From: Rhodovulum robiginosum
Lineage (GTDB): Bacteria; Pseudomonadota; Alphaproteobacteria; Rhodobacterales; Rhodobacteraceae
Direction: 5' to 3'
Assembly: GCF_003944755.1 (NCBI RefSeq)
Contig: NZ_RWGU01000051.1
Span: forward strand, 310,001 to 374,000
DNA length: 64,000 nucleotides
Shown: positions 2,266 through 16,145 of the stretch, one piece after another
How the letters are laid out: each line of letters opens with the position of its first letter
How positions within the stretch are numbered: the first letter of the stretch is position 1
Position numbers and translations under genes: made by a program
Notes under the pieces: model-generated
Databases searched by the model: none
Told to the model about the DNA's origin: nothing
What the model saw: only the letters and a program-made list of their open reading frames with translations

Positions 2266-4575
<2,310 letters not shown>

Positions 4576-4632: not shown

Positions 4633-5547
4633 ATGAATAATCTCTCCATGAAACAACTCCGCTATTTCGAGGCGCTGGCCCGGCACGGCCATTTCGGGCG
4701 TGCCGCCGAAGACTGCGCGATCTCGCAGCCGGCGCTGTCGATGCAGGTCAAGGAACTGGAGGAACGCCTGGGCGCGCCACTGGTCGAGCGCGGCGCGCGG
4801 CGTATTCGTCTGACCGGTCTTGGCGAGGCCTTCGCGGCGCGGGCGCGCGACATCCTGCGCGCCGTCGACGAGCTGGACGACCTCGCCCGCGCCTCGCACG
4901 GGGCGATGGCCGGCCGGTTTCGCGTCGGGGTGATCCCGACCGTCGCGCCCTACCTTTTGCCGGCGCTCATTACCGATCTGTCCGCGCGCTACCCCGCGCT
5001 GGATATCCGCCCGCGCGAAACGGTGACCCGCAAACTGATCGACAACCTGATGGAGGGCCGGCTCGACAGTGCGATCGTGGCCCTGCCGGTCTCGGAGCCC
5101 GCCCTGGTCGAAGAGCCTCTTTTCGAAGAGGAGTTCGTCCTGGTGCGCCCGCGCGAGGATGCGGGCAAGCCGGTGCCCAATTCCGAAACCCTGCGCGAGA
5201 TGCGCCTCTTGCTGCTCGAAGAGGGGCATTGCTTTCGTGATCAGGCAATTTCGTTTTGCAAGTCCGCGTCGGCCCTGCCGCGCGACCTGATGGAGGGCAG
5301 TTCGCTCGCGACGCTGGTGCAGATGGTCAATGCCGGCATCGGCGTGACGCTGATCCCCGAGATGGCCGTGCCGATCGAGACGCGGTCGGCCGCGGTCTCG
5401 GTCGTGCGCCTGCCGCGGCCGCGGCCCAAGCGCACCATCGGGATGGTCTGGCGCAAGACCAACCCGCTGGCCGGCCAGTTGGCCGAGATCGCGCAGATCG
5501 TCCGCCAGACCGCCGGCCGGATGGATGAGGATGCCGGCCTGCCCTGA
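4633..5547 (+). CDS. oxyR: LysR-type hydrogen peroxide sensor OxyR
   Basis: A 304-residue LysR-family regulator. The N-terminal winged HTH (residues 6-64) includes FGRAAEDCAISQPALSMQVK. The effector domain holds GHCFRDQAISFC, placing Cys200 and Cys209 nine residues apart as in the redox-switch pair Cys199/Cys208 of Escherichia coli OxyR. That pair and divergence from katG make the assignment strong. The product should activate katG when oxidised by peroxide. The start is uncertain between ATG 4633 and ATG 4648; neither has a clear ribosome binding site, and the upstream one is chosen for its fuller N-terminus. Confidence 0.95.
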   Translation: MNNLSMKQLRYFEALARHGHFGRAAEDCAISQPALSMQVKELEERLGAPLVERGARRIRLTGLGEAFAARARDILRAVDELDDLARASHGAMAGRFRVGVIPTVAPYLLPALITDLSARYPALDIRPRETVTRKLIDNLMEGRLDSAIVALPVSEPALVEEPLFEEEFVLVRPREDAGKPVPNSETLREMRLLLLEEGHCFRDQAISFCKSASALPRDLMEGSSLATLVQMVNAGIGVTLIPEMAVPIETRSAAVSVVRLPRPRPKRTIGMVWRKTNPLAGQLAEIAQIVRQTAGRMDEDAGLP

Positions 5548-5674
5548 GGGTTGCGGCCGGGTCAGGCGCGACCTGACGTGAGGGGCAGCCGCACGATGCG
5601 GTTGTCCCAGGCGCGGGCCCGATGTCGCCAACAGCCTGACCCGGGCTGACGGATGGCGTTGCCGCCGCGACAAG

Positions 5675-5699
5675 GGAACCATGTCCGCCGCCTTGCGTT
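5675..5699 (+). promoter_or_regulatory. EcfG-type promoter for the PLDc_N/phospholipase D pair
   Basis: GGAAC (5675-5679), a 16-nt spacer, then CGTT (5696-5699): the alphaproteobacterial general-stress sigma consensus. The predicted transcript start is about 34 nt before the ATG at 5740. Confidence 0.75.
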
Positions 5700-5739
5700 G
5701 ATCCCCGATAAACCGACGCAGAATTGAAAAGGGACATCC

Positions 5740-5928
5740 ATGATGGAAATCACCGGGCTTGGCGGTCTGATCGTCCTCGTACTCGACATCTGGGCCATCG
5801 TCGCGGTCCTGGGCTCTTCGGTCAGCACGGGGCGCAAGGTGCTTTGGGTTTTGCTTGTGGTGCTGTTGCCTATCGTGGGGTTCATCATCTGGCTGCTGGC
5901 CGGGCCTCGCGCGGCGTCTGCCGGCTGA
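5740..5928 (+). CDS. Small membrane protein, phospholipase D-nuclease N-terminal (PLDc_N) type
   Basis: A 62-residue protein made almost entirely of two hydrophobic segments (about residues 8-28 and 33-53), with the GRKVLWVLLVVLLPIVGFII pattern typical of PLDc_N domains. In cardiolipin synthases this domain precedes the catalytic part; here it is a free-standing protein 38 bp upstream of a phospholipase D gene. The ribosome binding site AAAAGGGA precedes tandem ATG codons at 5740 and 5743. The EcfG-type promoter upstream suggests stress induction. Its function alone is unknown; a membrane-anchoring partner for the next gene is inference. Confidence 0.75.
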   Translation: MMEITGLGGLIVLVLDIWAIVAVLGSSVSTGRKVLWVLLVVLLPIVGFIIWLLAGPRAASAG

Positions 5929-5966
5929 AAACCTGACCGACCCGCCCCAGCACAGGAGCAGGGCAA

Positions 5967-7559
5967 GTGAAGATGACCGATCCGCGCGCCGCGGGCGCAG
6001 CCGTTGACCCGCGCCGCGGCGAGACGGGTCCGGTGACGCGTTTCGACGTGCTGGTGACCGCCGCCGAGGCCTACCCGGCGCTCGAACGTGAATTCCTGGC
6101 GGCCGAAAATACTATTTCGGCCAGTTTCCGCGTTTTCGACCTGTCCACGCGGCTGCGCTCCGACGCGGCGCGCAAGATCGGCGAGGACTGGTTCGACCTG
6201 CTGGTGCATACGCTCCGGCGCGGCGTCCGGGTGCGGATGGTGCTGTCGGATTTCGACCCGATCGGCGCCGATGACCTGCACCGCCTGTGCTGGCGCGCGC
6301 GGCGCTGGTTCGCGGCGGCGGCCGAACTGGCCGGCGAGGGCGGGCTCGAGGTGATCAGCGACTGCCATCCGGCAGAGGCCGGCGCAGGGGCGCGGCTGGT
6401 GCTGGCGCCCGGTGCCTTCGGCCGGTTGCGCGGCGTGATCGGCAAGCTCAACGCCCTGCCCGAAGCCAAGCGCGCGCGCTACCTGTCCGAGGCCCCCGGC
6501 CTGGCCGCGCTGGTGCGCCCGGGGCGAGACGGCGTTGCCCCGCGGGCGGCGCTGCCCAGGCTGTTTCCGGCGACCCATCACCAAAAGATGGCCGTTTTCG
6601 ACGAGCGCCGCCTCTATATCGGCGGGCTGGACCTCAACGAACGGCGCTATGACACGCCCGGCCATCGCCGCGCGCCGCACAGCACCTGGCACGATTTGCA
6701 GGCGATGGTCGAAGGCCCCGTTGTGGCCGCGGCCACGGCCCATCTGGAGGGCTTTCTTGATGCGGTCGCGGGACGCCGGGCGCCGCCCCCGCCGGCGCCG
6801 GGCTTTTTGCGGACCCTGTCGCGCCGGGCCCGGCGGGCGCCGTTCCGGTTTTCACCCGTGCCGATGGTGCGCGAACTGGAACGGGCGCATTTCGCGCGGA
6901 TCGCCGAGGCGCGCCAGTTGATCTATATGGAAACGCAATTCTTCCGGCACCTGCCGTTGGCCCGTGCGTTGGCCCGCCGCGCCCGCGCCTGCCCGGATCT
7001 GTGCCTGATTTTGCTGGTGCCCGCCGCGCCCGAGGATGTGGCCTTCGAAGACAATCGCGGCCTCGATGCGCGCTATGGCGAGCATCTGCAGCAGCGCTGC
7101 CTCGACGTGATCCGCGACGGGTTCGGCCAGCGGCGTATGCTGGTGGTCTCGCCGGTTCAGTCGCGTCCCCATCCGGGCGACGGACGCGAGACGCTGGAGG
7201 CGGCGCCGCTGGTCTACGTGCATTCCAAACTGTCGATCTTCGACGACCGGGCGGCGATCCTGTCATCGGCCAATCTCAACGGGCGCAGCCTGTGCTGGGA
7301 TAGCGAGGCCGGGCTGGAGCTGACCGAGCCTGACCAACTGGCGCATTTGCGCCGCCGGGCGATGGGGCACTGGCTGCCCGATCCGGTCGAGGATGCGGCG
7401 CTGGCCCCGGCCACGGCCTTCGGGCGGTGGGTCGCGCTGGCCGAGCGCAACGCGCGCGCCGCCCCGAGCGAACGCCAGGGTTTTCTCGTTCCCTATGATT
7501 CGCAACCGGCACGCGAAATCGCGCTGCCGGCGCCCGGCGTGCCGGACGCGATGGTCTAG
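5967..7559 (+). CDS. Phospholipase D-family protein (cardiolipin synthase-like)
   Basis: A 530-residue protein with two HKD motifs: HHQKMAVFD (His205, Lys207, Asp212) and VHSKLSIFD (His419, Lys421, Asp426), each followed by the family's GGLDL or SSANLNGRS block. Both catalytic sites are intact, so phosphatidyl transfer or phosphodiester hydrolysis is expected. The N-terminal membrane domain of canonical cardiolipin synthase is missing; the preceding small gene could supply it. GTG 5967 is chosen because AGGAG lies 9 nt upstream; an in-frame ATG at 5973 is the alternative. It probably shares the EcfG-type promoter at 5675. Confidence 0.88.
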   Translation: MKMTDPRAAGAAVDPRRGETGPVTRFDVLVTAAEAYPALEREFLAAENTISASFRVFDLSTRLRSDAARKIGEDWFDLLVHTLRRGVRVRMVLSDFDPIGADDLHRLCWRARRWFAAAAELAGEGGLEVISDCHPAEAGAGARLVLAPGAFGRLRGVIGKLNALPEAKRARYLSEAPGLAALVRPGRDGVAPRAALPRLFPATHHQKMAVFDERRLYIGGLDLNERRYDTPGHRRAPHSTWHDLQAMVEGPVVAAATAHLEGFLDAVAGRRAPPPPAPGFLRTLSRRARRAPFRFSPVPMVRELERAHFARIAEARQLIYMETQFFRHLPLARALARRARACPDLCLILLVPAAPEDVAFEDNRGLDARYGEHLQQRCLDVIRDGFGQRRMLVVSPVQSRPHPGDGRETLEAAPLVYVHSKLSIFDDRAAILSSANLNGRSLCWDSEAGLELTEPDQLAHLRRRAMGHWLPDPVEDAALAPATAFGRWVALAERNARAAPSERQGFLVPYDSQPAREIALPAPGVPDAMV

Positions 7560-7668
7560 ACGGCTTTTTGGGCAGATTTGGGCGGGATTTCGCGCGTGAG
7601 CGTCGCGGCAATATGGCATGGCACCCCGTTTGTGGCTAAAACTGGCACGAACCGGGATCTTGACGGAC

Positions 7669-8019
7669 ATGCCTGCCTTGACGCCACCGACCTACCTGGT
7701 GCTGGAACGCGACGCCCTAATTTCGGCCGATCTGATCCAGGCCATCGAGTCACGCGGCCCCTGCCGCGTGGTGCACTATGCCTCGGTCGATGAGATCGGG
7801 CCCGAGCTGCACAAAATCCGCCCGGTTGACGCGGCGTTCCTGGAGATGCGCTACGATGAGGCGATCAACAGTACCCTGTCGACTCAACTGGCGCGCGACG
7901 GCGCCCGGATGGTTCTGACCATGGGTGAGGATGTCGAACGGATTGCCGGTACGGGCTGGCGGCTGTTGCTGCGCCCGTTTACCGACGAGATGGTGCACCA
8001 GGCGCTGAGCGAGGGCTGA
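7669..8019 (+). CDS. Degenerate response-regulator receiver protein
   Basis: A 116-residue single-domain protein with receiver layout: hydrophobic beta-1 then LERD (Glu13/Asp15 acidic pair), a beta-3 ending in AAFLEM, a VLT strand end (Thr84), and RPF near the C-terminus. At the phospho-acceptor position there is Glu59 rather than Asp, and the conserved switch Lys is Arg102. It therefore probably cannot be phosphorylated normally, or mimics a phosphorylated state. The start at ATG 7669 begins directly at the domain; the frame is open upstream to 7618. It lies in the general stress island, 110 bp after the phospholipase D gene. No output domain is present. Confidence 0.7.
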
Positions 8020-8025
8020 ACCCGC

Positions 8026-8382
8026 TCAACGCGCTTCAGGCCGGCGCGCAGCGCGACCGGCCTCCATCCCCACGGCGAAGCCTTCGGCCATCTGGAAGAA
8101 AGGGCCGTAGGGGTCGGGCTCTGCCTGTTGCGGCGTGTTTTGTCTTGCGCCGCCGCCCGGCGCGATGGCCCACAGCAATAGGCCCAGCCCGGCATAGACC
8201 GCGCCGATCACCGTGGCGGCATAGAGCGGGCTACCCTGCGCGGCCAAAACCAGCCAGGCGGCCAGCGTCAGGAACCCCGCGCCAGCCGCGACGCAGGCAG
8301 CGCCCGCCGCCCGAAGCGCCAGGCGGTGCGACAGCGCCTCGGCGCGCCGCTCTGCCGCCTCTAGCGGGTTGGGCAACATCAT
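8026..8382 (-). CDS. YqjE/holin-like small membrane protein
   Basis: A 118-residue protein with an N-terminal amphipathic segment and two membrane spans (about residues 25-48 and 56-76), then a polar tail. It resembles the Phage_holin_3_6/YqjE group often encoded beside DUF883 proteins; this is family resemblance only, and no phage genes are near. Its ATG overlaps the stop codon of the upstream DUF883 gene by one base, so the two are translationally coupled. It should share that gene's EcfG-type promoter. Confidence 0.7.
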
Positions 8383-8699
8383 CAGCGCCGCCCCGTCATC
8401 AGACCGACGACAAAGCCCAGGCCAACGGCCAGGCCCATCGCGGTTGCCGGTTGCCGGCGCACTGCGTCAGCCGCCTGGTCGCCGAGCTCTCCGCCCCGGG
8501 CGCGCGCATCGTCCAAGGTGGCTTCGCCCCGTGCCTTGAGGTCGGATGCGGTCTTGTGAACGCTGTCCTGAAGCTCCGAGCGACGCTCGGCGCCCATGTC
8601 GGCGAGCGTGCGCGAGATACCGGCGATGTCGGCCTTGAGCGCGTCGATCTGGCGTTCGAGATCTTCGCTGCTGGCGGCGCCATTGGCATTGCTGGCCAT
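8382..8699 (-). CDS. DUF883 (YqjD/ElaB-like) stress membrane protein
   Basis: A 105-residue protein with an alanine- and charge-rich helical body (about 10-80) and a single C-terminal membrane anchor, [18 protein letters not shown], ending in RR. This matches the YqjD/ElaB group, tail-anchored proteins linked to ribosome association in stationary-phase E. coli. Upstream, in the divergent spacer, is a minus-strand EcfG-type promoter about 30 nt from the expected transcript start to the ATG, so stress induction is predicted. Confidence 0.8.
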
Positions 8700-8735
8700 G
8701 TTGCGTCTCCTTTTTGTCCGTCCAATCTGGAAATC

Positions 8736-8760
8736 AACGCGCGAGGGCGGTCAGGGTTCC
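8736..8760 (-). promoter_or_regulatory. EcfG-type promoter for the DUF883/YqjE-like pair
   Basis: On the minus strand GGAAC (8760-8756), 16-nt spacer, CGTT (8739-8736), directed at the gene starting at 8699. It is divergent from the plus-strand copy at 8785. Confidence 0.72.
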
Positions 8761-8784
8761 ACCGCGTGGTTGGCAGGGTCTTGC

Positions 8785-8809
8785 GGAACCGGCCGGTCTG
8801 CGGCGCGTT
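8785..8809 (+). promoter_or_regulatory. EcfG-type promoter for the DUF1328 gene
   Basis: GGAAC (8785-8789), 16-nt spacer, CGTT (8806-8809). The expected transcript start is about 31 nt before the ATG at 8847. Confidence 0.75.
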
Positions 8810-8846
8810 GACCCACGACAAGCGAACAACAAAGGAGACGACCCCC

Positions 8847-9017
8847 ATGCTTTATTGGGCCCTCATGTTCTTCATCGTCGCCGTCATCGCGGGCGTTTTC
8901 GGCTTTGGCGGCATTGCCTCTGCCTCGGCCGGGATCGCGCAGATCCTGTTTTTCATCTTCCTCGTGCTTTTCGTGGGCGCGGTGTTGATGCGCCTGCTGT
9001 CGGGCCGTAGGCCCTGA
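8847..9017 (+). CDS. DUF1328 (YtjA-like) small membrane protein
   Basis: A 56-residue protein with two hydrophobic helices separated by a glycine-rich turn ([16 protein letters not shown]) and a short basic end, the full DUF1328 pattern. Function is unknown; members are widespread stress-associated membrane peptides. AAGGAG at 8832 serves the ATG at 8847. An EcfG-type promoter lies immediately upstream and a strong hairpin terminator follows, so it is probably a single-gene transcript. Confidence 0.88.
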
Positions 9018-9055
9018 CGAGCGGCCGATCCCGCCCGCCATAAGAGCCGGGCACG

Positions 9056-9091
9056 AAAAGGCCCCGCCGGTGACCGGCGGGGCCTTTTTTC
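9056..9091. terminator. Bidirectional intrinsic terminator
   Basis: GGCCCCGCCGG (9060-9070), loop TGA, CCGGCGGGGCC (9074-9084), flanked by AAAA on the left and six Ts on the right. It separates the convergent DUF1328 gene and phyR and can serve both. Confidence 0.9.
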
Positions 9092-9110
9092 ATTCGGGCG
9101 GCGGGCGTGG

Positions 9111-9929
9111 TCAGGCGCCCAGCGTCTCGGTGCTGGCAAAGAACATCGCCTGGCTGACGGCCGAGCGCACCTGGTCTTCCGAATAGGGTTTGGAGATCAG
9201 GAAGGCGGGCTCACGGCGTTCACCCGTCAACAGCCGCTCGGGGAAGGCGGTGATGAACACCACGGGCCGTTCGCCCAGTTCCGAAAGGATATCGTTCACC
9301 GCGTCGATACCCGAGGATTTGTCAGCGAGCTGGATGTCGGCGAGGATCAGGTCGGGCGGGGTTTTGCGCGCCAGCTCGACGGCGCCGGCGCGGGTGCGGG
9401 CGATGCCGGTCACGTCGTGGTCCAACCCCTCGACGATGGCCGAGATATCGACCGCGATGATCGCCTCGTCCTCGATAATCAGAACCCGGCCCGAGATCGC
9501 CTTGGACATCTCTTCGCGCGCGATGCGCACCAAGTCTGCCGCTTCGTCGGCATCCGTGCCGATAATCTCGGCAATGTCCTCGGCGCCGAAGCCCTCGATC
9601 GAATGCAGCAGCAGCGCCTCGCGGGTGTTGGGGGTCAACTGGGCGAGGCGCGCCTGCGCCTGCGCCTCGGTCGGCGTCGCGGCCTCTGCCGCGTCCATCG
9701 GCGCGCCGGCAGACGACCAGATACGATTGAACGCCTTGAAAAGCGCCACCTTGGCCGAAAGCCCGCGCTCGAAGACCGACGCGTCGGCCAGGATCGCTTC
9801 GAGCGTGGCCAGCGCGTAGGCGTCGCCGCTTTTCTGGCTGCCGGTCAGCGCCCGCGCATAGCGGCGCACATAGGGCAACTCGGCCCCGATCGCTTGGGAA
9901 AGATCGTCCCCATCATTAGGTTCCGTCAT
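9111..9929 (-). CDS. phyR: General stress response anti-anti-sigma regulator PhyR
   Basis: A 272-residue PhyR: an N-terminal EcfG-like sigma mimic (sigma-2-like about 10-75, sigma-4-like about 90-140, including LTPNTREALLLHSIEGF) fused to a C-terminal receiver (about 148-265). The receiver has the acidic pair in IIEDEA, the phospho-acceptor Asp198 in LILADIQL, and Lys247 in SKPYS. Phosphorylated PhyR binds NepR and releases EcfG. The start MTEPNDGDD fits family length. It is divergent from nepR-ecfG across a spacer holding a symmetric EcfG promoter, so it is predicted to be positively autoregulated. Confidence 0.97.
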   Translation of the reverse strand: MTEPNDGDDLSQAIGAELPYVRRYARALTGSQKSGDAYALATLEAILADASVFERGLSAKVALFKAFNRIWSSAGAPMDAAEAATPTEAQAQARLAQLTPNTREALLLHSIEGFGAEDIAEIIGTDADEAADLVRIAREEMSKAISGRVLIIEDEAIIAVDISAIVEGLDHDVTGIARTRAGAVELARKTPPDLILADIQLADKSSGIDAVNDILSELGERPVVFITAFPERLLTGERREPAFLISKPYSEDQVRSAVSQAMFFASTETLGA

Positions 9930-9960
9930 GCATGACCTCGAAAAAAGTTGCATCGTGATG

Positions 9961-9993
9961 GGAACCGAACGCGAGACGGGCGCGTTCGGTTCC
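9961..9993. promoter_or_regulatory. Palindromic, two-way EcfG promoter between phyR and nepR
   Basis: GGAACCGAACGCG (9961-9973), a 7-nt centre, and CGCGTTCGGTTCC (9981-9993) form a perfect 13-bp inverted repeat. Read forward it gives GGAAC-N17-CGTT (9961-9986); read on the minus strand it gives the same (9993-9968). Predicted leaders are about 31-32 nt to phyR (9929) and to nepR (ATG 10026). Confidence 0.85.
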
Positions 9994-10025
9994 AGAAATT
10001 TGCGAAATAGGGCGGACCGGTACAA

Positions 10026-10193
10026 ATGCCAAAGACGCAACCCAGGGGGCGCATGGAAGAGCAAATCGACGCGAACCTGCGGCGGGTCTACGCGGACACG
10101 GTACAAGAGGAGGTGCCCGAGCGCTTTCTCAAGCTTCTCGACGAGCTGCGCGAGAAGGGCAAGGCCGTGCCCGACAGCGAGGCCGACTCGTGA
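10026..10193 (+). CDS. nepR: Anti-sigma factor NepR
   Basis: A 55-residue (or 46-residue) protein with the NepR core IDANLRRVYADTVQEEVPER, the helix pair that wraps EcfG and, when PhyR is phosphorylated, PhyR instead. It lies between phyR and ecfG as in other alphaproteobacteria and overlaps ecfG by 4 bp (GTGA). Start choice: ATG 10026 gives MPKTQPRGR before the in-frame ATG 10053; the latter has AGGGGG close upstream, so either is possible. The promoter at 9961-9986 serves both. Confidence 0.9.
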   Translation: MPKTQPRGRMEEQIDANLRRVYADTVQEEVPERFLKLLDELREKGKAVPDSEADS

Positions 10194-10744
10194 GCGAAAT
10201 AACCGACCCCCGCGACGAACTGATAGAACACCTGCCAGCGATGCGCGCGTTCGCACTGAGCCTGACGCGCAACGGCGCCACGGCCGACGACCTGGTGCAG
10301 GATGCGCTGGTCAAGGCGTGGGACAACCTCGACAAGTTCGAGCCGGGCACAAACATGCGCGCGTGGCTGTTCACCATCCTGCGCAACACCTACTATTCAC
10401 TCCACCGAAAACGAAAGCGCGAGGTCGAGGACCCGGACGGCGTGCTGGCCAGCCACCTGTCGGAAAAGCCGCACCATGACGGCCGGCTCGCGCTGGAAGA
10501 TTTCAAGACGGCCTTCGCCGAGTTGACGGACGAGCAGCGCGAGGCCCTGATCCTGGTGGGCGCCGAGGGGTTTTCCTACGAAGAGGCCGCAGCCACCTGC
10601 GGCTGTGCGGTGGGCACGATCAAGAGCCGGGTCAACCGGGCGCGGGCGCGACTGGCCGAACTGATGCACCTCGATGATACCGACGATCTGGAAATGACCG
10701 ACGCGACCACCCTGGCCGGCCTTTCCGGGGCGTCGACCGCATGA
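10190..10744 (+). CDS. ecfG: General stress ECF sigma factor EcfG
   Basis: A 184-residue sigma-70-family ECF factor. Sigma-2 spans about residues 12-72 (ADDLVQDALVKAWDNLDKF, then RAWLFTILRN) and sigma-4 about 105-160 (LTDEQREALILVGAEGFSYEEAA, with a GTIKSRVNRARARL recognition helix). No extra C-terminal domain is seen. The GTG start overlaps the nepR stop and the stop overlaps the ATG of the following histidine kinase, giving a three-gene coupled operon. It should recognise the GGAAC-N16/17-CGTT sites found at five loci in this window. Confidence 0.95.
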   Translation: MSEITDPRDELIEHLPAMRAFALSLTRNGATADDLVQDALVKAWDNLDKFEPGTNMRAWLFTILRNTYYSLHRKRKREVEDPDGVLASHLSEKPHHDGRLALEDFKTAFAELTDEQREALILVGAEGFSYEEAAATCGCAVGTIKSRVNRARARLAELMHLDDTDDLEMTDATTLAGLSGASTA

Positions 10745-12564
10745 CCGAACGGTTGCAGGCGCGGATCACGACGCGCCGGGTGACCAAATCGCTGGCGGTC
10801 TGGCTGATCGGTGCGCTGACCGTTGCGATGCTGCCGCTCGGGCTGATTTCGGTCTACCAAACCTCGAAGGTCTTGCACGAATCCCAGCGGCTATCGGGCG
10901 TCGCCCTGATGGACCGTACACAGCGCGCCGCGGCCCGCACCCAGGCGCTGATCCAGTCAGCCTTCGGCGCGGCCAAGACGGTGGCGGCGGCCAATGTCCT
11001 TTTCGACGGCGGCGGGCTGTCCTGCGACGCGGTTCTTGCAAGGCTGGTCGACGAGAGCGAGGCCTATATTTTTGCGGGGTTCATCGACACCCGCGGCAAC
11101 ATCACCTGTTCGTCCACCGGAGAGCGGCTGAGCGTCGCCGAAAGCGCCTATTTCCTGGACATCCTGCGCGACCCCAAGCCACGGGTCGACACCCGCACCA
11201 ATGCCAATCTTCGTCATGTGCGGGTGGTGCGGGTCAGTGTGCCGGTCTACGAGCGCGGCGATTTGCAGGGGTTCGTGCTGATCTCGATGCCCTACGCGGC
11301 CGTCTATTACTCGCTCGACGGACAGGGCGACCCTGTCGATCTGCTGGTCTTCGACGGCGAGGGAGAGTTCCTGACCGCCGAGGCCGCGCAAAGGGATTAC
11401 GGCACGCCGCCGCAGGATTTCGAAGAGGTTTTGCCTCGGGGGCGGACGCTTGAACGTCTGGCCGCCAGCGGCCGGCAATCGTTCCGGGGCGAAAACCGGC
11501 GCGGCGAGACGCGCGATTTCGCCGTGGTGCCGGTGGTCGAGGGGCGCGTCTACGTGCTGGGCAGTTGGGCCCCCGACCGCACCAGCCTGCTGCCACGGGC
11601 GGGCCGCGCGATGGCGCTCTATTTCCCGCTGCTGATGTGGGGCGCGGGCATGGTGGTGGCGTTTTTCGGCGTGCATCGCCTGGTGATCCGCCATATCCGC
11701 CGCCTGCGATCCTGGATGCAGCTTTATGCCGGCGGCAAGACCGATTTCGAGACCGAGCGGCTGGACCACGCGCCGGACGAGCTGGAAGTGATGGCCGAGG
11801 CGTTCCGGTCGATGACCCGGCGCCTGGCCGAGCAGGAGCGTGCGCTGGAAGAGGACCTGGCCGAAAAGACCATCCTGCTGAAGGAGGTGCACCACCGGGT
11901 GAAGAACAACCTCCAGCTCATCACCTCGATCATGAACATGCAGATCCGCAACGCCCAGAGCGCAGAGGCGCAAACCCTGCTCAGGCGGGTGCAGGACCGG
12001 GTGATGGCGCTGGCCGCGATCCACCGCTACCTCTACCTTGCGCGCAAGCTGTCGATGGTGCGCGCCGACCGCCTGCTCGACGACATCATCGGCCAGCTCG
12101 TGGTGGTGGGCGATATCGGCGGCGGTGATGAACGGGTCAGGATCTCGACCGAGTTCAGCCCGGTCGAGGTCAGCCCCGACCAGTCGGTGCCGCTGTCGCT
12201 GCTGGCAACCGAGGCGGCCATGAACGCGGTGAAGTATTGCGGCGCGCCCGCTTCCGGCGCGCCCTGGATCACCATCGCGCTGCAGGCGCTTGAGGATGGG
12301 CGCGTCTGCCTGTCGGTGGTCAATTCCCGCGCCGGGGCGCAGGCGGACGCCGCGCCGGGCGATGCCGACGGATCTGGGCTGGGGCAGAAGCTGATCGAGT
12401 CCTTCGCGGCGCAGCTCGACGGCGCGCTTGAAATCCAGGCCGAGCCCGAGCGATATGAGCTACACGTTACCTTTACGCCGCTTGCCCCCGAGCCCGACGA
12501 CGAGACCGACACCTTGCCGGACGAGGGAACCGGCGCGCAAGATGCGCGTTCCAATACCGATTGA
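10741..12564 (+). CDS. HisKA_2-family sensor histidine kinase, probable PhyR kinase
   Basis: A 607-residue membrane kinase. A first membrane span (about 19-40) and a second (about 290-312) bracket a periplasmic sensor domain of roughly 250 residues that looks like a Cache-type fold. A HAMP-like linker follows (about 313-368), then the HisKA_2 box LKEVHHRVKNNLQ with the likely phospho-accepting His385, and an ATP-binding domain with the asparagine-containing LATEAAMNAVKY box. HisKA_2/HWE kinases are the known phosphodonors for PhyR. The ATGA overlap with ecfG supports that role. The signal sensed is unknown. Confidence 0.9.
   Translation: MTERLQARITTRRVTKSLAVWLIGALTVAMLPLGLISVYQTSKVLHESQRLSGVALMDRTQRAAARTQALIQSAFGAAKTVAAANVLFDGGGLSCDAVLARLVDESEAYIFAGFIDTRGNITCSSTGERLSVAESAYFLDILRDPKPRVDTRTNANLRHVRVVRVSVPVYERGDLQGFVLISMPYAAVYYSLDGQGDPVDLLVFDGEGEFLTAEAAQRDYGTPPQDFEEVLPRGRTLERLAASGRQSFRGENRRGETRDFAVVPVVEGRVYVLGSWAPDRTSLLPRAGRAMALYFPLLMWGAGMVVAFFGVHRLVIRHIRRLRSWMQLYAGGKTDFETERLDHAPDELEVMAEAFRSMTRRLAEQERALEEDLAEKTILLKEVHHRVKNNLQLITSIMNMQIRNAQSAEAQTLLRRVQDRVMALAAIHRYLYLARKLSMVRADRLLDDIIGQLVVVGDIGGGDERVRISTEFSPVEVSPDQSVPLSLLATEAAMNAVKYCGAPASGAPWITIALQALEDGRVCLSVVNSRAGAQADAAPGDADGSGLGQKLIESFAAQLDGALEIQAEPERYELHVTFTPLAPEPDDETDTLPDEGTGAQDARSNTD
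12526..12550 (+). promoter_or_regulatory. EcfG-type promoter inside the kinase gene's 3' end, for entericidin
   Basis: GGAAC (12526-12530), 16-nt spacer, CGTT (12547-12550), with the predicted start about 20 nt before the ATG at 12578. It lies within the last codons of the upstream kinase gene. Confidence 0.7.
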
Positions 12565-12577
12565 TTCTGGAGGATCC

Positions 12578-12718
12578 ATGACCCGTTTCGCCGCCGCTGC
12601 CCTCGCGCTTTTCAGCTTCATGGCCCTGACCGCCTGCGAAACCGTCGAAGGCGCGGGGCGCGACCTGGAAACCGCAGGCAAGACAATCTCGCGCGAGGCC
12701 CGGGAGGCTAAGCGCTAG
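12578..12718 (+). CDS. Entericidin A/B family lipoprotein
   Basis: A 46-residue lipoprotein: a hydrophobic signal, the lipobox ALTAC (Cys20), then the entericidin pattern ETVEGAGRDLETAGKTI and a basic end. Entericidins are tiny stress-induced lipoproteins with reported bacteriolytic or envelope effects. TGGAGG at about 12568 is the ribosome binding site. An EcfG-type promoter lies in the tail of the preceding gene, so it can be expressed apart from the ecfG operon. Confidence 0.88.
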   Translation: MTRFAAAALALFSFMALTACETVEGAGRDLETAGKTISREAREAKR

Positions 12719-12745
12719 GGCCGCGCCCAACCGCAGGAGACCCCG

Positions 12746-12928
12746 ATGCCAGCCAAATCGAAAGCACAGCAACGCGCCGCTGGCGCCGCCCTCGCCGCCA
12801 AGCGCGGCGAGATGCCCGAAGCCGAGCTTCAGGGGGCATCGAAAGAGATGTTCGAGACGATGTCCGAGGCCGAGCTGGAGGACTTTGCCTCGACCGGCCA
12901 CGACGACCTGCCGGAAGAAAAGGGCTAG
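12746..12928 (+). CDS. DUF3008-like small stress protein
   Basis: A 60-residue hydrophilic protein beginning MPAKSKAQQRAAGAALAAKR and continuing GASKEMFETMSEAELEDFAST, the recognised DUF3008 pattern. It has no signal peptide or membrane span and resembles small cytoplasmic stress proteins of alphaproteobacteria. It lies 27 bp after entericidin behind an AGGAG ribosome binding site and is probably co-transcribed with it from the EcfG-type promoter. Confidence 0.75.
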   Translation: MPAKSKAQQRAAGAALAAKRGEMPEAELQGASKEMFETMSEAELEDFASTGHDDLPEEKG

Positions 12929-12965
12929 CGGCCGGAGAGGTCGGCCCGACCATCGCGCCGCGCGG

Positions 12966-13583
12966 CTAAATCAGCAATGCCGCGACAATGGCAGCCGCGC
13001 CGAGGAAGGGTGCCATGCCCGCCAGCGCGAGCAGCCCGTCCTTGGTCAGCATCGCAACGCTCAGCATCACCACCGATGCGCCCAGAAGCGACGATGAGAA
13101 TGGCACCAGTTCCAGGAAAGGCATTGCCAGGCCTGCCACCAGGCACAGCACCTGCAACAGGCGCAGCAAGGGCGGGGTGACGAGAGCGGCCAGGCGCGGG
13201 CGCGCGATGCGCTCCAGCCACGCCGCGGGCCGGCGCAGCCAATCGACTGCGTGCCGCACTTGCCGGGCGCGGATGCGGCGCTGCATCAGCCACCGCGGCG
13301 CCCAGACGTGGCGGCGTCGGACCGCCATCTGTGCCGCGAAAATACTGATCGTTATACCGCAAAGACTGGAAAACCCCGGAATTCCGCTGAGTGGCGACAC
13401 CACGGCCAGGGCCGGCGCCATCATCAGTGGCGCGTAAGAGGCCGTGCCCAGCGCCTCGAACAGCGCCCGGATCGACACGACATCGTCCCGCGCCACCGCC
13501 GCGACCTCTTCGAGCACGGTGGTCACCGGTGCTTCCACCAAGCGCGCGGCCGTTTGCTCGGCAATGCTGTCGTCCAATGTCAT
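12966..13583 (-). CDS. Exopolysaccharide synthesis ExoD-family membrane protein
   Basis: A 205-residue protein with several membrane segments (about 50-90, 140-165 and 172-203) and the ExoD hallmarks LFEALGTASYAPLMMAPAL and PFSSSLLGASVVMLSVAML. ExoD proteins were linked to exopolysaccharide and alkali tolerance in rhizobia; the biochemical role is unknown. It ends the stress island and converges with the DUF3008 gene. A near-consensus EcfG motif (CGAAC-N16-CGTT, one mismatch) lies on its strand at 13699-13675, but too weak to claim. Confidence 0.85.
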   Translation of the reverse strand: MTLDDSIAEQTAARLVEAPVTTVLEEVAAVARDDVVSIRALFEALGTASYAPLMMAPALAVVSPLSGIPGFSSLCGITISIFAAQMAVRRRHVWAPRWLMQRRIRARQVRHAVDWLRRPAAWLERIARPRLAALVTPPLLRLLQVLCLVAGLAMPFLELVPFSSSLLGASVVMLSVAMLTKDGLLALAGMAPFLGAAAIVAALLI

Positions 13584-14498: not shown

Positions 14499-16145
14499 TC
14501 AGGACCACCCCAGCCGGTGGACGTTGATCTCGTATTTCGGGTGTTGCTCCGCGCCGAGCAAGCCGTCCTTGTAGTGACGGAAGATCGCGCGGAAATAGGG
14601 AATGATCGCGACGCCCTCATCCACCATCATCTGCTCCAGCTTGGCCATGACCGATTGGCGCGCGGTGTTGTCGGCAATCGCGGTCGCCTCTGCCAGCAAC
14701 GCATCGAACGCCTCGGACCGAAAGCCCGCTTCGTTCCATGTCGCGTTGGAATGATAGGCCAGGTTCATCGACTGGATGCCGGTTTCGCGGTGGCCCCAGT
14801 TGGTGGACGAGAACGGGTACTTGGTCCAGTTGTTCCAGAAGGTCGAGCCGGGCAAAACCGTACGGTTCACCTGAAAGCCCGCGTCGCGCAGTTGCGACGC
14901 CACCGCGTCGGTCGTGGCTTTGATGAATCCGTCGTCGATGGACACGAGGTCATGCTCGTACTCCATCATGCCGGCCTCTTCCATAAGGCGCCGGGCCTCT
15001 TCGACATCGCGTTCATGGGCCGGGATGTCGGCATGGTCCGGGTTCACGCCGGGCGCCACGTGGTAGTTGTTGTTCGACAGCGCGCCGCGGTTGGAAAGGC
15101 CCAGTTCCAGCGGCACCGCATTGTCTACGGCCAGCGCCAGGGCACGGCGCACCCGCACGTCGGCATAGGGCGTCTGGCCGTCGATCTCGGCCTCCTGGTT
15201 GGGGCGGATCACCACGGTCGCGGCGGTGCCGATCTCGCTCTTGACCCAGCCCAGCGCGTCGAAAATCTCGATGAAATCGGCCACCGTTTCGTAGGCCATG
15301 TCGAACTCGTCGGAATCGGCCCCGGCCAGCCAGGCCGCCGGGTCGGTGCCGTAATCGAGGAATTCGACCCGGTCGAGAAAGGTCTCTCCCCAGTATGTGT
15401 GGTCGGGGTTCTTCACCAGCACGACCTTCTCGCCCACCCGGAACTCGTCGAACACATAAGCGCCGGTGCCGATGCCGTGGTCGAGAACCGAAGTGCCGAT
15501 CCTGTCGCGGTGCATGATCGCGGCCGGGTAGTCGGCCATGCCGAACATCAGCGTCCCGTCGGGGTAGCGCAGCCTGAGCAGGACCGTATGGCTATCGACA
15601 ACCTCGATCGCGCCGTCGGCGGCGGTGCCGTTTTCGACCAGCGCGGCCATCCGCGTCGCCATCGAGTTGCCCTCGACGGATTCGTCGCACCAGCCGACGA
15701 TGTTGGCGGCCACGTCCTCGGCGGTGAAGTCATCGCCGTTGTTCCATGTCACGCCCTGCCTGACGTTCAGGGTGTATTCGGTGGCGTCTTCATTGGCCTG
15801 CCAGCTTTTCAGCAGGATCGGCGCCAGCGTCCCGTTGCGCAGAACCTCGGCGAGATACTCGATCGTGCCGCGCGTCTGGTTGGCCATCTCGGGCCAGTCA
15901 TAGGTGCGCGGATCCTTCAACTCGCGGCAGCTCATCTGGACGCGCAGGGTGCCGCCCATTTGCGGTGTGGCCGCGCGGGCCGGTGCGTCGAGGCCGATCA
16001 GGCCATAGGCCGCGGCAGAGCCCACGCCGAGCGCCGTGGCGCGGCCTAGGAATTCGCGGCGGCTCATCGCCCCGGCGCGGTGCTCGTCCGCGTAAAGCGC
16101 CGCGGCCGGGTGGGTCCGCGCGCGGCGGGCTTCGAAATCTGTCAT
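14499..16145 (-). CDS. Family 5 (peptide-type) ABC transporter solute-binding protein
   Basis: A 548-residue extracytoplasmic solute-binding protein. A twin-arginine signal, [13 protein letters not shown], lies at about 28-40, followed by a hydrophobic stretch and an ARA cleavage region. The mature domain shows SBP_bac_5 features such as LAESW-like [29 protein letters not shown] and RRALALAVD. Substrate is unknown; this family binds peptides, nickel, opines and others. No permease or ATPase gene is adjacent, so the rest of the transporter must be elsewhere. The start [10 protein letters not shown] gives the Tat motif a long hydrophilic N-region, which is common in this group. Confidence 0.9.

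Follow-up and report, generated by a model that had tools for sequence, protein, structure and literature searches.

In the PhyR-NepR-sigma-EcfG response of alphaproteobacteria, phosphorylated PhyR takes NepR, EcfG is freed, and EcfG-type sites are activated (PMC4814048, PMC7083833, PMC3892343; these and the other papers cited are used as far as the excerpted text of each reaches). EcfG-type promoters on both sides of the divergent phyR and nepR-ecfG genes are usual (PMC4814048). The EcfG regulon of Sphingopyxis granuli includes 79 transcriptional units with the motif GGAAC-N16-CGTT, ecnAB, csbD and mscS being direct targets (PMC7083833). In Rhodobacter sphaeroides, PhyR matters for membrane stress and for survival of ultraviolet light, and not for the other stresses tested (PMC5830050). 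A locus of this type was analysed in a stretch of 64,000 nucleotides from Rhodovulum robiginosum (contig NZ_RWGU01000051.1, positions 310,001 to 374,000), which is called the window below and is numbered from its own first letter. The locus very probably consists of a PhyR/NepR/sigma-EcfG/kinase switch together with conserved envelope genes transcribed via EcfG, its central promoters forming one palindrome whose two directions would compete.

The likeness to the alphaproteobacterial response lies in the same proteins, in the divergence of phyR from nepR-ecfG and in the adjacent HWE/HisKA_2 histidine kinase. Both the sigma-like and the receiver domains of PhyR are present (Pfam), the gene of the anti-sigma factor NepR shares an operon with ecfG, and EcfG-type promoters stand on both sides between phyR and the divergent nepR-ecfG-kinase genes. 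Unlike the response as described in the literature searched, the central promoters here overlap in a palindrome, and several targets lie within 7 kb. The motif GGAAC-N16-CGTT is common to this locus and S. granuli. The PhyR membrane-stress module of R. sphaeroides has the same locus layout, and its part in membrane stress is in keeping with targets in the envelope; the excerpted text describes neither its target genes nor an overlap of promoters (PMC5830050). No description of phyR and nepR promoters overlapping in one palindrome was found in the open-licence literature on EcfG motifs and on divergent or bidirectional promoters, mostly judged by title and opening of the abstract.

EcfG-type sites in the window, the genome and related loci

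A pattern scan of both strands found seven exact matches to GGAAC-N16/17-CGTT in the window. Six of them make up the island, with the following positions:

5675-5699, plus strand: EcfG-type promoter (N16) of the PLDc_N gene and probably of the phospholipase D (PLD) gene; predicted start A5708, leader of 32 nt to the ATG
8736-8760, minus strand: EcfG-type promoter (N16) of DUF883-yqjE; predicted start 8727, leader of 28 nt
8785-8809, plus strand: EcfG-type promoter (N16) of DUF1328; predicted start 8818, leader of 29 nt
9961-9986, plus strand: promoter of nepR (N17), within the palindrome; predicted start 9995, leader of 31 nt
9968-9993, minus strand: promoter of phyR (N17), within the palindrome; predicted start 9959, leader of 30 nt
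9961-9993, both strands: palindrome of 33 bp holding the two overlapping N17 promoters, with exact arms of 13 bp and a centre of 7 bp
12526-12550, plus strand: EcfG-type promoter (N16) of the entericidin gene, within the 3' end of the kinase gene; predicted start 12559, leader of 19 nt

The seventh match (14812-14836, minus strand) was rejected as a promoter, being internal to a solute-binding-protein gene (SBP_bac_5 domain). An earlier note on this DNA had proposed six exact-consensus promoters at five loci, with transcripts starting about 20-35 nt before the start codons. All six sites are present, and the predicted leaders of 19-32 nt agree with the proposal; the places occupied are four, because the sites of DUF883 and DUF1328 stand back to back and those of phyR and nepR overlap completely. 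The DUF1328 and DUF883-yqjE genes diverge from their back-to-back sites, and the PLDc_N-PLD site lies 3 kb further along. The start was predicted at position +9 after CGTT, taken from the purine frequency in the sites of relatives; at all six island sites this base is A or G.

Shuffling the window gave a mean of 1.04 matches, and none of 100 shuffles reached seven. In the whole genome (3.71 Mb) there are 43 exact matches, six of them inside the 6.9 kb of the island, while the runner-up stretch of this length holds three. With a Poisson mean of 0.08 for 6.9 kb, the probability of at least six matches is 3.3e-10, or 1.7e-8 for at least five when the overlapping phyR/nepR pair is counted once, both values being post hoc, as the stretch was picked by the finding itself. 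The genome totals were 43 for N16-17, 15 for N20-21, 57 for N12-13 and 64 for the reversed pattern, these controls not being matched for codon phase. No clear genome-wide excess of the motif was found against the other spacers and the reversed pattern, and the density in the island is therefore exceptional. A genome-wide excess as proof of a large regulon was rejected because the counts swing with the spacer (15, 43, 57) and two of the controls were not codon-phase matched. A second, smaller cluster of three matches is found in the same genome (G000:C28:190534-193302, L026-L028), with a self-complementary site on both strands and one site 2.7 kb off.

The comparison with relatives was based on 96 phyR loci, 80 being named records and 16 being stretches from whole genomes. 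Removal of the near copies L128, L144 and L145 left 93 non-redundant loci; a transfer of L151, L154 and L155 to the outside-family set left 90 Rhodobacteraceae loci and gave 19 outside ones. The family label of the 80 named loci is as annotated, L065 and L092 being annotated as Alphaproteobacteria only. Within 7 kb of phyR, exact sites number 390 in the 93 loci, whereas wrong spacers of matching codon phase yield 14-18 (a control run on the loci only, not genome-wide), the swapped order 16 and the reversed pattern 26. The spacer spectrum peaks only at N16 (260 sites) and N17 (130), with only 3-16 sites for every other spacer from 6 to 29. The non-overlapping sites of relatives (175 N16 and 90 N17, window excluded) also agree at bases that the search pattern left free: C follows GGAAC in 67% and 70%, respectively, G precedes CGTT in 75% and 67%, and position +9 after CGTT is a purine, mostly preceded by C, in 88% and 92%.

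From the excess over the controls it follows that the island is old and conserved, not special to its own genome. Farther than 7 kb from phyR, the density is 0.40 per 10 kb, compared with 0.07-0.15 for the spacer controls and 0.33 for the reversed pattern, and the edge of the island is therefore not sharp. The 19 outside-family loci hold 49 sites in 253 kb versus 3.25 for the controls; they have fewer sites per locus than the family (Mann-Whitney P 0.002, without correction for kinship or for differences in locus length). The island as a trait special to this genome or to the family was rejected, the clustering outside the family being weaker but present.

The palindrome between phyR and nepR

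The palindrome is a feature absent from the earlier note. Each of its arms starts with GGAAC-NN-AACG and so combines a -35 with the -10 of the opposite promoter; the predicted phyR and nepR starts lie 36 bp apart and belong to separate -10 boxes. When at most one mismatch per promoter was allowed, an overlapping phyR/nepR pair was found in 84 of the 90 Rhodobacteraceae loci, compared with 17 of 6000 intervals drawn at random from these loci. The loci span 26 named genera, besides unnamed ones; overlapping pairs occur in 24 of the 26. Of the 84 pairs, 78 are offset by 7 nt, and the footprint is 32 bp in 61, 33 bp in 18 and 31 bp in five. Both promoters are exact in 21 of the 90 loci, only that of phyR in 44 and only that of nepR in 16. 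In all 60 loci with a single exact side, the other side deviates in the -10 and never in GGAAC.

A gene-blind search of genomes with GGAACNNAAC-N12/13-GTTNNGTTCC gave matches in 45 of 198 family genomes (taken irrespective of PhyR content), in a single copy each. Of the 44 matches in genomes other than that of R. robiginosum, 43 sit in the phyR-nepR interval; the remaining one is next to nepR, where its contig ends. The same search of 142 class-wide genomes returned the R. robiginosum genome only, though PhyR is matched at E <= 1e-20 in 22 of them. The palindrome is a nearly specific DNA tag for the stress-switch locus. Both promoters are exact in the palindromes of two named Cereibacter relatives (L130, L138), a genus to which we take R. 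sphaeroides to belong.

A near-perfect inverted repeat between two divergent genes is typically an operator, and the arms in the window are 13 bp long and exact. The palindrome could accordingly be the operator of a dimeric protein that represses or activates phyR and nepR, its likeness to promoters being secondary. This is very unlikely, as the arms are composed of promoter words (-35 and -10) spaced by N16 or N17, all three footprint lengths leave both promoters usable, and each matching genome has a single copy. Furthermore, the one-sided changes hit the -10 and spare GGAAC, as EcfG promoters vary in S. granuli (PMC7083833).

In the symmetry of its sequence and the overlap of its promoters, the palindrome resembles the bidirectional (pseudo-symmetrical) sigma-70 promoters of Escherichia coli, where one symmetrical sequence receives polymerase in two mutually exclusive orientations, the -10 is shared, and the starts are commonly 10-23 bp apart (PMC12825309). 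In contrast to these, the palindrome pairs the -35 of one promoter with the -10 of the other in each arm, has its predicted starts 36 bp apart and would be read by an extracytoplasmic function (ECF) sigma factor; a shared -10 with starts 10-23 bp apart is not what it has.

Proposed competition between the two directions and its alternatives

According to the known pathway, the kinase would phosphorylate PhyR, and phosphorylated PhyR would take NepR, releasing EcfG. Freed EcfG would then transcribe DUF1328, DUF883-yqjE, PLDc_N-PLD and entericidin along with its own regulators. At the palindrome the two polymerase footprints coincide, so that one polymerase at a time would be accommodated, entering from either side. 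As two polymerases are not expected to fit, the synthesis of PhyR and that of NepR-EcfG would compete when EcfG is abundant. Such competition would cap the positive feedback, and the ratio of the antagonist to the inhibitor plus sigma would follow the relative strength of the two -10 boxes.

Tentatively, the palindrome may be viewed as a mutual-exclusion switch that chooses PhyR or NepR-EcfG-kinase at each initiation, with lineages tuning it by weakening one -10, which would explain that different stresses induce phyR and ecfG mRNA in R. sphaeroides. In that organism phyR mRNA is raised 2-3 fold by singlet oxygen, superoxide and diamide, and membrane stress is the sole stress raising ecfG mRNA (PMC5830050). 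A shared site could produce a reciprocal pattern of this kind. If the overlap does act in the proposed way, competition at a single short symmetrical element sets how much anti-sigma and sigma is made relative to the antagonist, a simple, testable rule for a partner-switch circuit.

Overlap that is real but without regulatory effect is also a possibility to be taken seriously, though not the likelier one: the promoters may not be active enough for collisions between polymerases, and the palindrome may do no more than save space. The E. coli bidirectional promoters show no competition at basal or low activity, and competition with lower noise once they are activated (PMC12825309). Against an overlap without effect stand the 7-nt offset retained in the great majority of family pairs, while 16 of the 19 outside-family loci have no overlap, and the autoregulation of ecfG1 in Rhizobium etli, which is strongly induced by excess sigma (PMC3892343).

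Several points weigh against a locus built on EcfG promoters that compete at the palindrome. In E. coli, bidirectional promoters compete only at strong activity (PMC12825309), and other phyR promoters could equally give the mRNA pattern of R. sphaeroides. Six of the 90 Rhodobacteraceae loci miss the overlap criterion, L067, L100 and L139 having a weaker overlapping pair and L098, L116 and L153 none. An overlapping pair is also found in three of the 19 outside-family loci, two of them with an offset of 2, and the palindrome as a trait of Rhodobacteraceae only was rejected on these grounds; in outside loci with both sites clear (e.g. L229, L230, L235, L236), the sites are separate and back to back. 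Clustered sites, too, occur in the 19 loci of other families. Finally, three genomes of the genus (G007, G009 and G013), which have neither PhyR nor NepR, retain an exact EcfG-type promoter before DUF1328, starting at -60 or -61 (G013 L220:9067, minus strand, and 9103, plus strand; G007 L221:495, minus strand; G009 L222:4157, plus strand), and another sigma may therefore read the DUF1328 sites.

Reading of the island target sites by an ECF sigma other than EcfG agrees with these genomes: G013 retains both divergent sites with relatives of entericidin, DUF883 and yqjE, the closest ECF sigmas of the three are 39-50% identical to EcfG, and one G013 ECF sigma matches PhyR_sigma2 and sigma-70 region models. 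This explanation is nevertheless improbable, since the sites cluster around phyR in 93 loci, the phyR, nepR and target sites have a common motif and the non-overlapping ones a common +9 purine, and GGAAC-N16-CGTT is the published EcfG motif (PMC7083833, PMC3892343). The EcfG-like sigma gene of G013 (L223:4157-4687) is followed by a gene resembling, by eye, an anti-sigma factor.

Among 16 genomes belonging to the genus, NepR is missing in eight, none of which has a full-length match to PhyR; in five of these eight DUF1328 is missing too. The gene clustering could accordingly stem from joint inheritance and loss and not from control. This is rather doubtful: gene content and order vary between the loci while the promoters stay, and joint inheritance accounts for the linkage, not for the promoters.

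Genes of the island and sites beyond it

The genes and the other features of the island are as follows:

5740-5928, plus strand: PLDc_N small membrane protein, 62 aa (PF13396, E 4.3e-11)
5967-7559, plus strand: phospholipase D-like protein, 530 aa (PF00614 and PF13091)
8026-8382, minus strand: YqjE-like protein, 118 aa (label of the earlier note, no Pfam hit; homologues in 48 of the 96 phyR loci)
8382-8699, minus strand: DUF883-type protein, 105 aa (PF19029, DUF883_C, 21.3 bits, under the cut-off of 27)
8847-9017, plus strand: DUF1328 small membrane protein, 56 aa (PF07043, E 1.5e-15)
9055-9090, no strand assigned: hairpin flanked by A and T tails in the gap from DUF1328 to phyR, likely a two-way terminator (-31.7 kcal/mol, z -5.9)
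9111-9929, minus strand: phyR (PF22029, PF22233, PF00072)
10026-10193, plus strand: nepR (PF18557, E 2e-14)
10190-10744, plus strand: ecfG, overlapping nepR by 4 nt (PF04542, PF08281)
10741-12564, plus strand: HisKA_2/HWE histidine kinase, overlapping ecfG by 4 nt (PF07568, PF07536)
12578-12718, plus strand: entericidin, 46 aa (PF08085, E 1.1e-7)

Pfam upholds the identities of PhyR, NepR, the ECF sigma, the kinase, PLDc_N, PLDc, DUF1328 and entericidin, but DUF883_C remains below the cut-off and YqjE is without a hit. An Rfam scan of the window found a tRNA only, and a sigma-70-like promoter was sought in 5500-13000 and not found.

The families behind exact sites in the 93 loci were PhyR (70 loci), DUF883 (39), NepR (33), DUF1328 (29), entericidin (29), AI-2E permease (20), PLDc_N (19), CsbD (16), ExoD (16) and MscS (9); these counts are partial, 48 loci holding sites without an assigned family, and the automatic choice of start codons was poor for AI-2E, MscS, PLDc_N and PLD. 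Judging by their names, small proteins of the membrane or envelope make up many of the assigned families. Targets of this type agree with the published membrane-stress role of R. sphaeroides PhyR (PMC5830050), and the conserved island offers a ready list of envelope genes for this role in the family.

Unlike the much larger regulon of S. granuli, only 12 of the 43 exact sites of this genome resemble the promoters of relatives, scoring above the tenth percentile of relatives' sites, and six of these 12 are in the island; the profile was built from relatives of the island and is therefore biased toward its sites. Plausible sites elsewhere precede a DUF1269 protein (C11:271412), an 84-aa protein not recognised by Pfam (C3:107240) and a protein (C4:37559) that looks, by eye, like a DUF1523 protein encoded in the R. 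marinum island. The regulon is probably not confined to the island. The clustering of the stress module and its probable membrane and envelope targets in one 7-kb island, proposed in the earlier note, stands, and it is not peculiar to one genome. A further site with a good profile score (G000:C11:379693-379718, L019), for which no convincing downstream gene was found, perhaps belongs to a small RNA.

The island is abutted by a KatG-type peroxidase gene (2266-4551, minus strand; PF00141 in two stretches) and by a divergent gene of a LysR-family regulator (4633-5547, plus strand), OxyR-like by position only. On the other side an ExoD gene (12966-13583, minus strand) has no exact EcfG site before it, versus 16 of 93 loci with such a site.

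Within the island, a gene at 7618-8019 (plus strand) encodes a protein without a Pfam hit that is conserved close to phyR in 42 loci. An exact EcfG site was sought within 200 nt upstream of its homologues, and none was found in the 25 checked. The predicted fold is a receiver domain (pLDDT 89), and the matches in the PDB are receivers, including SdrG. At what we presume to be the receiver motif positions, the phosphorylated Asp is replaced by Glu in 28 of the 42 loci and retained in one, and Lys is replaced by Arg in all 20 aligned sequences. The protein is a candidate phospho-mimic accessory regulator of the stress switch.

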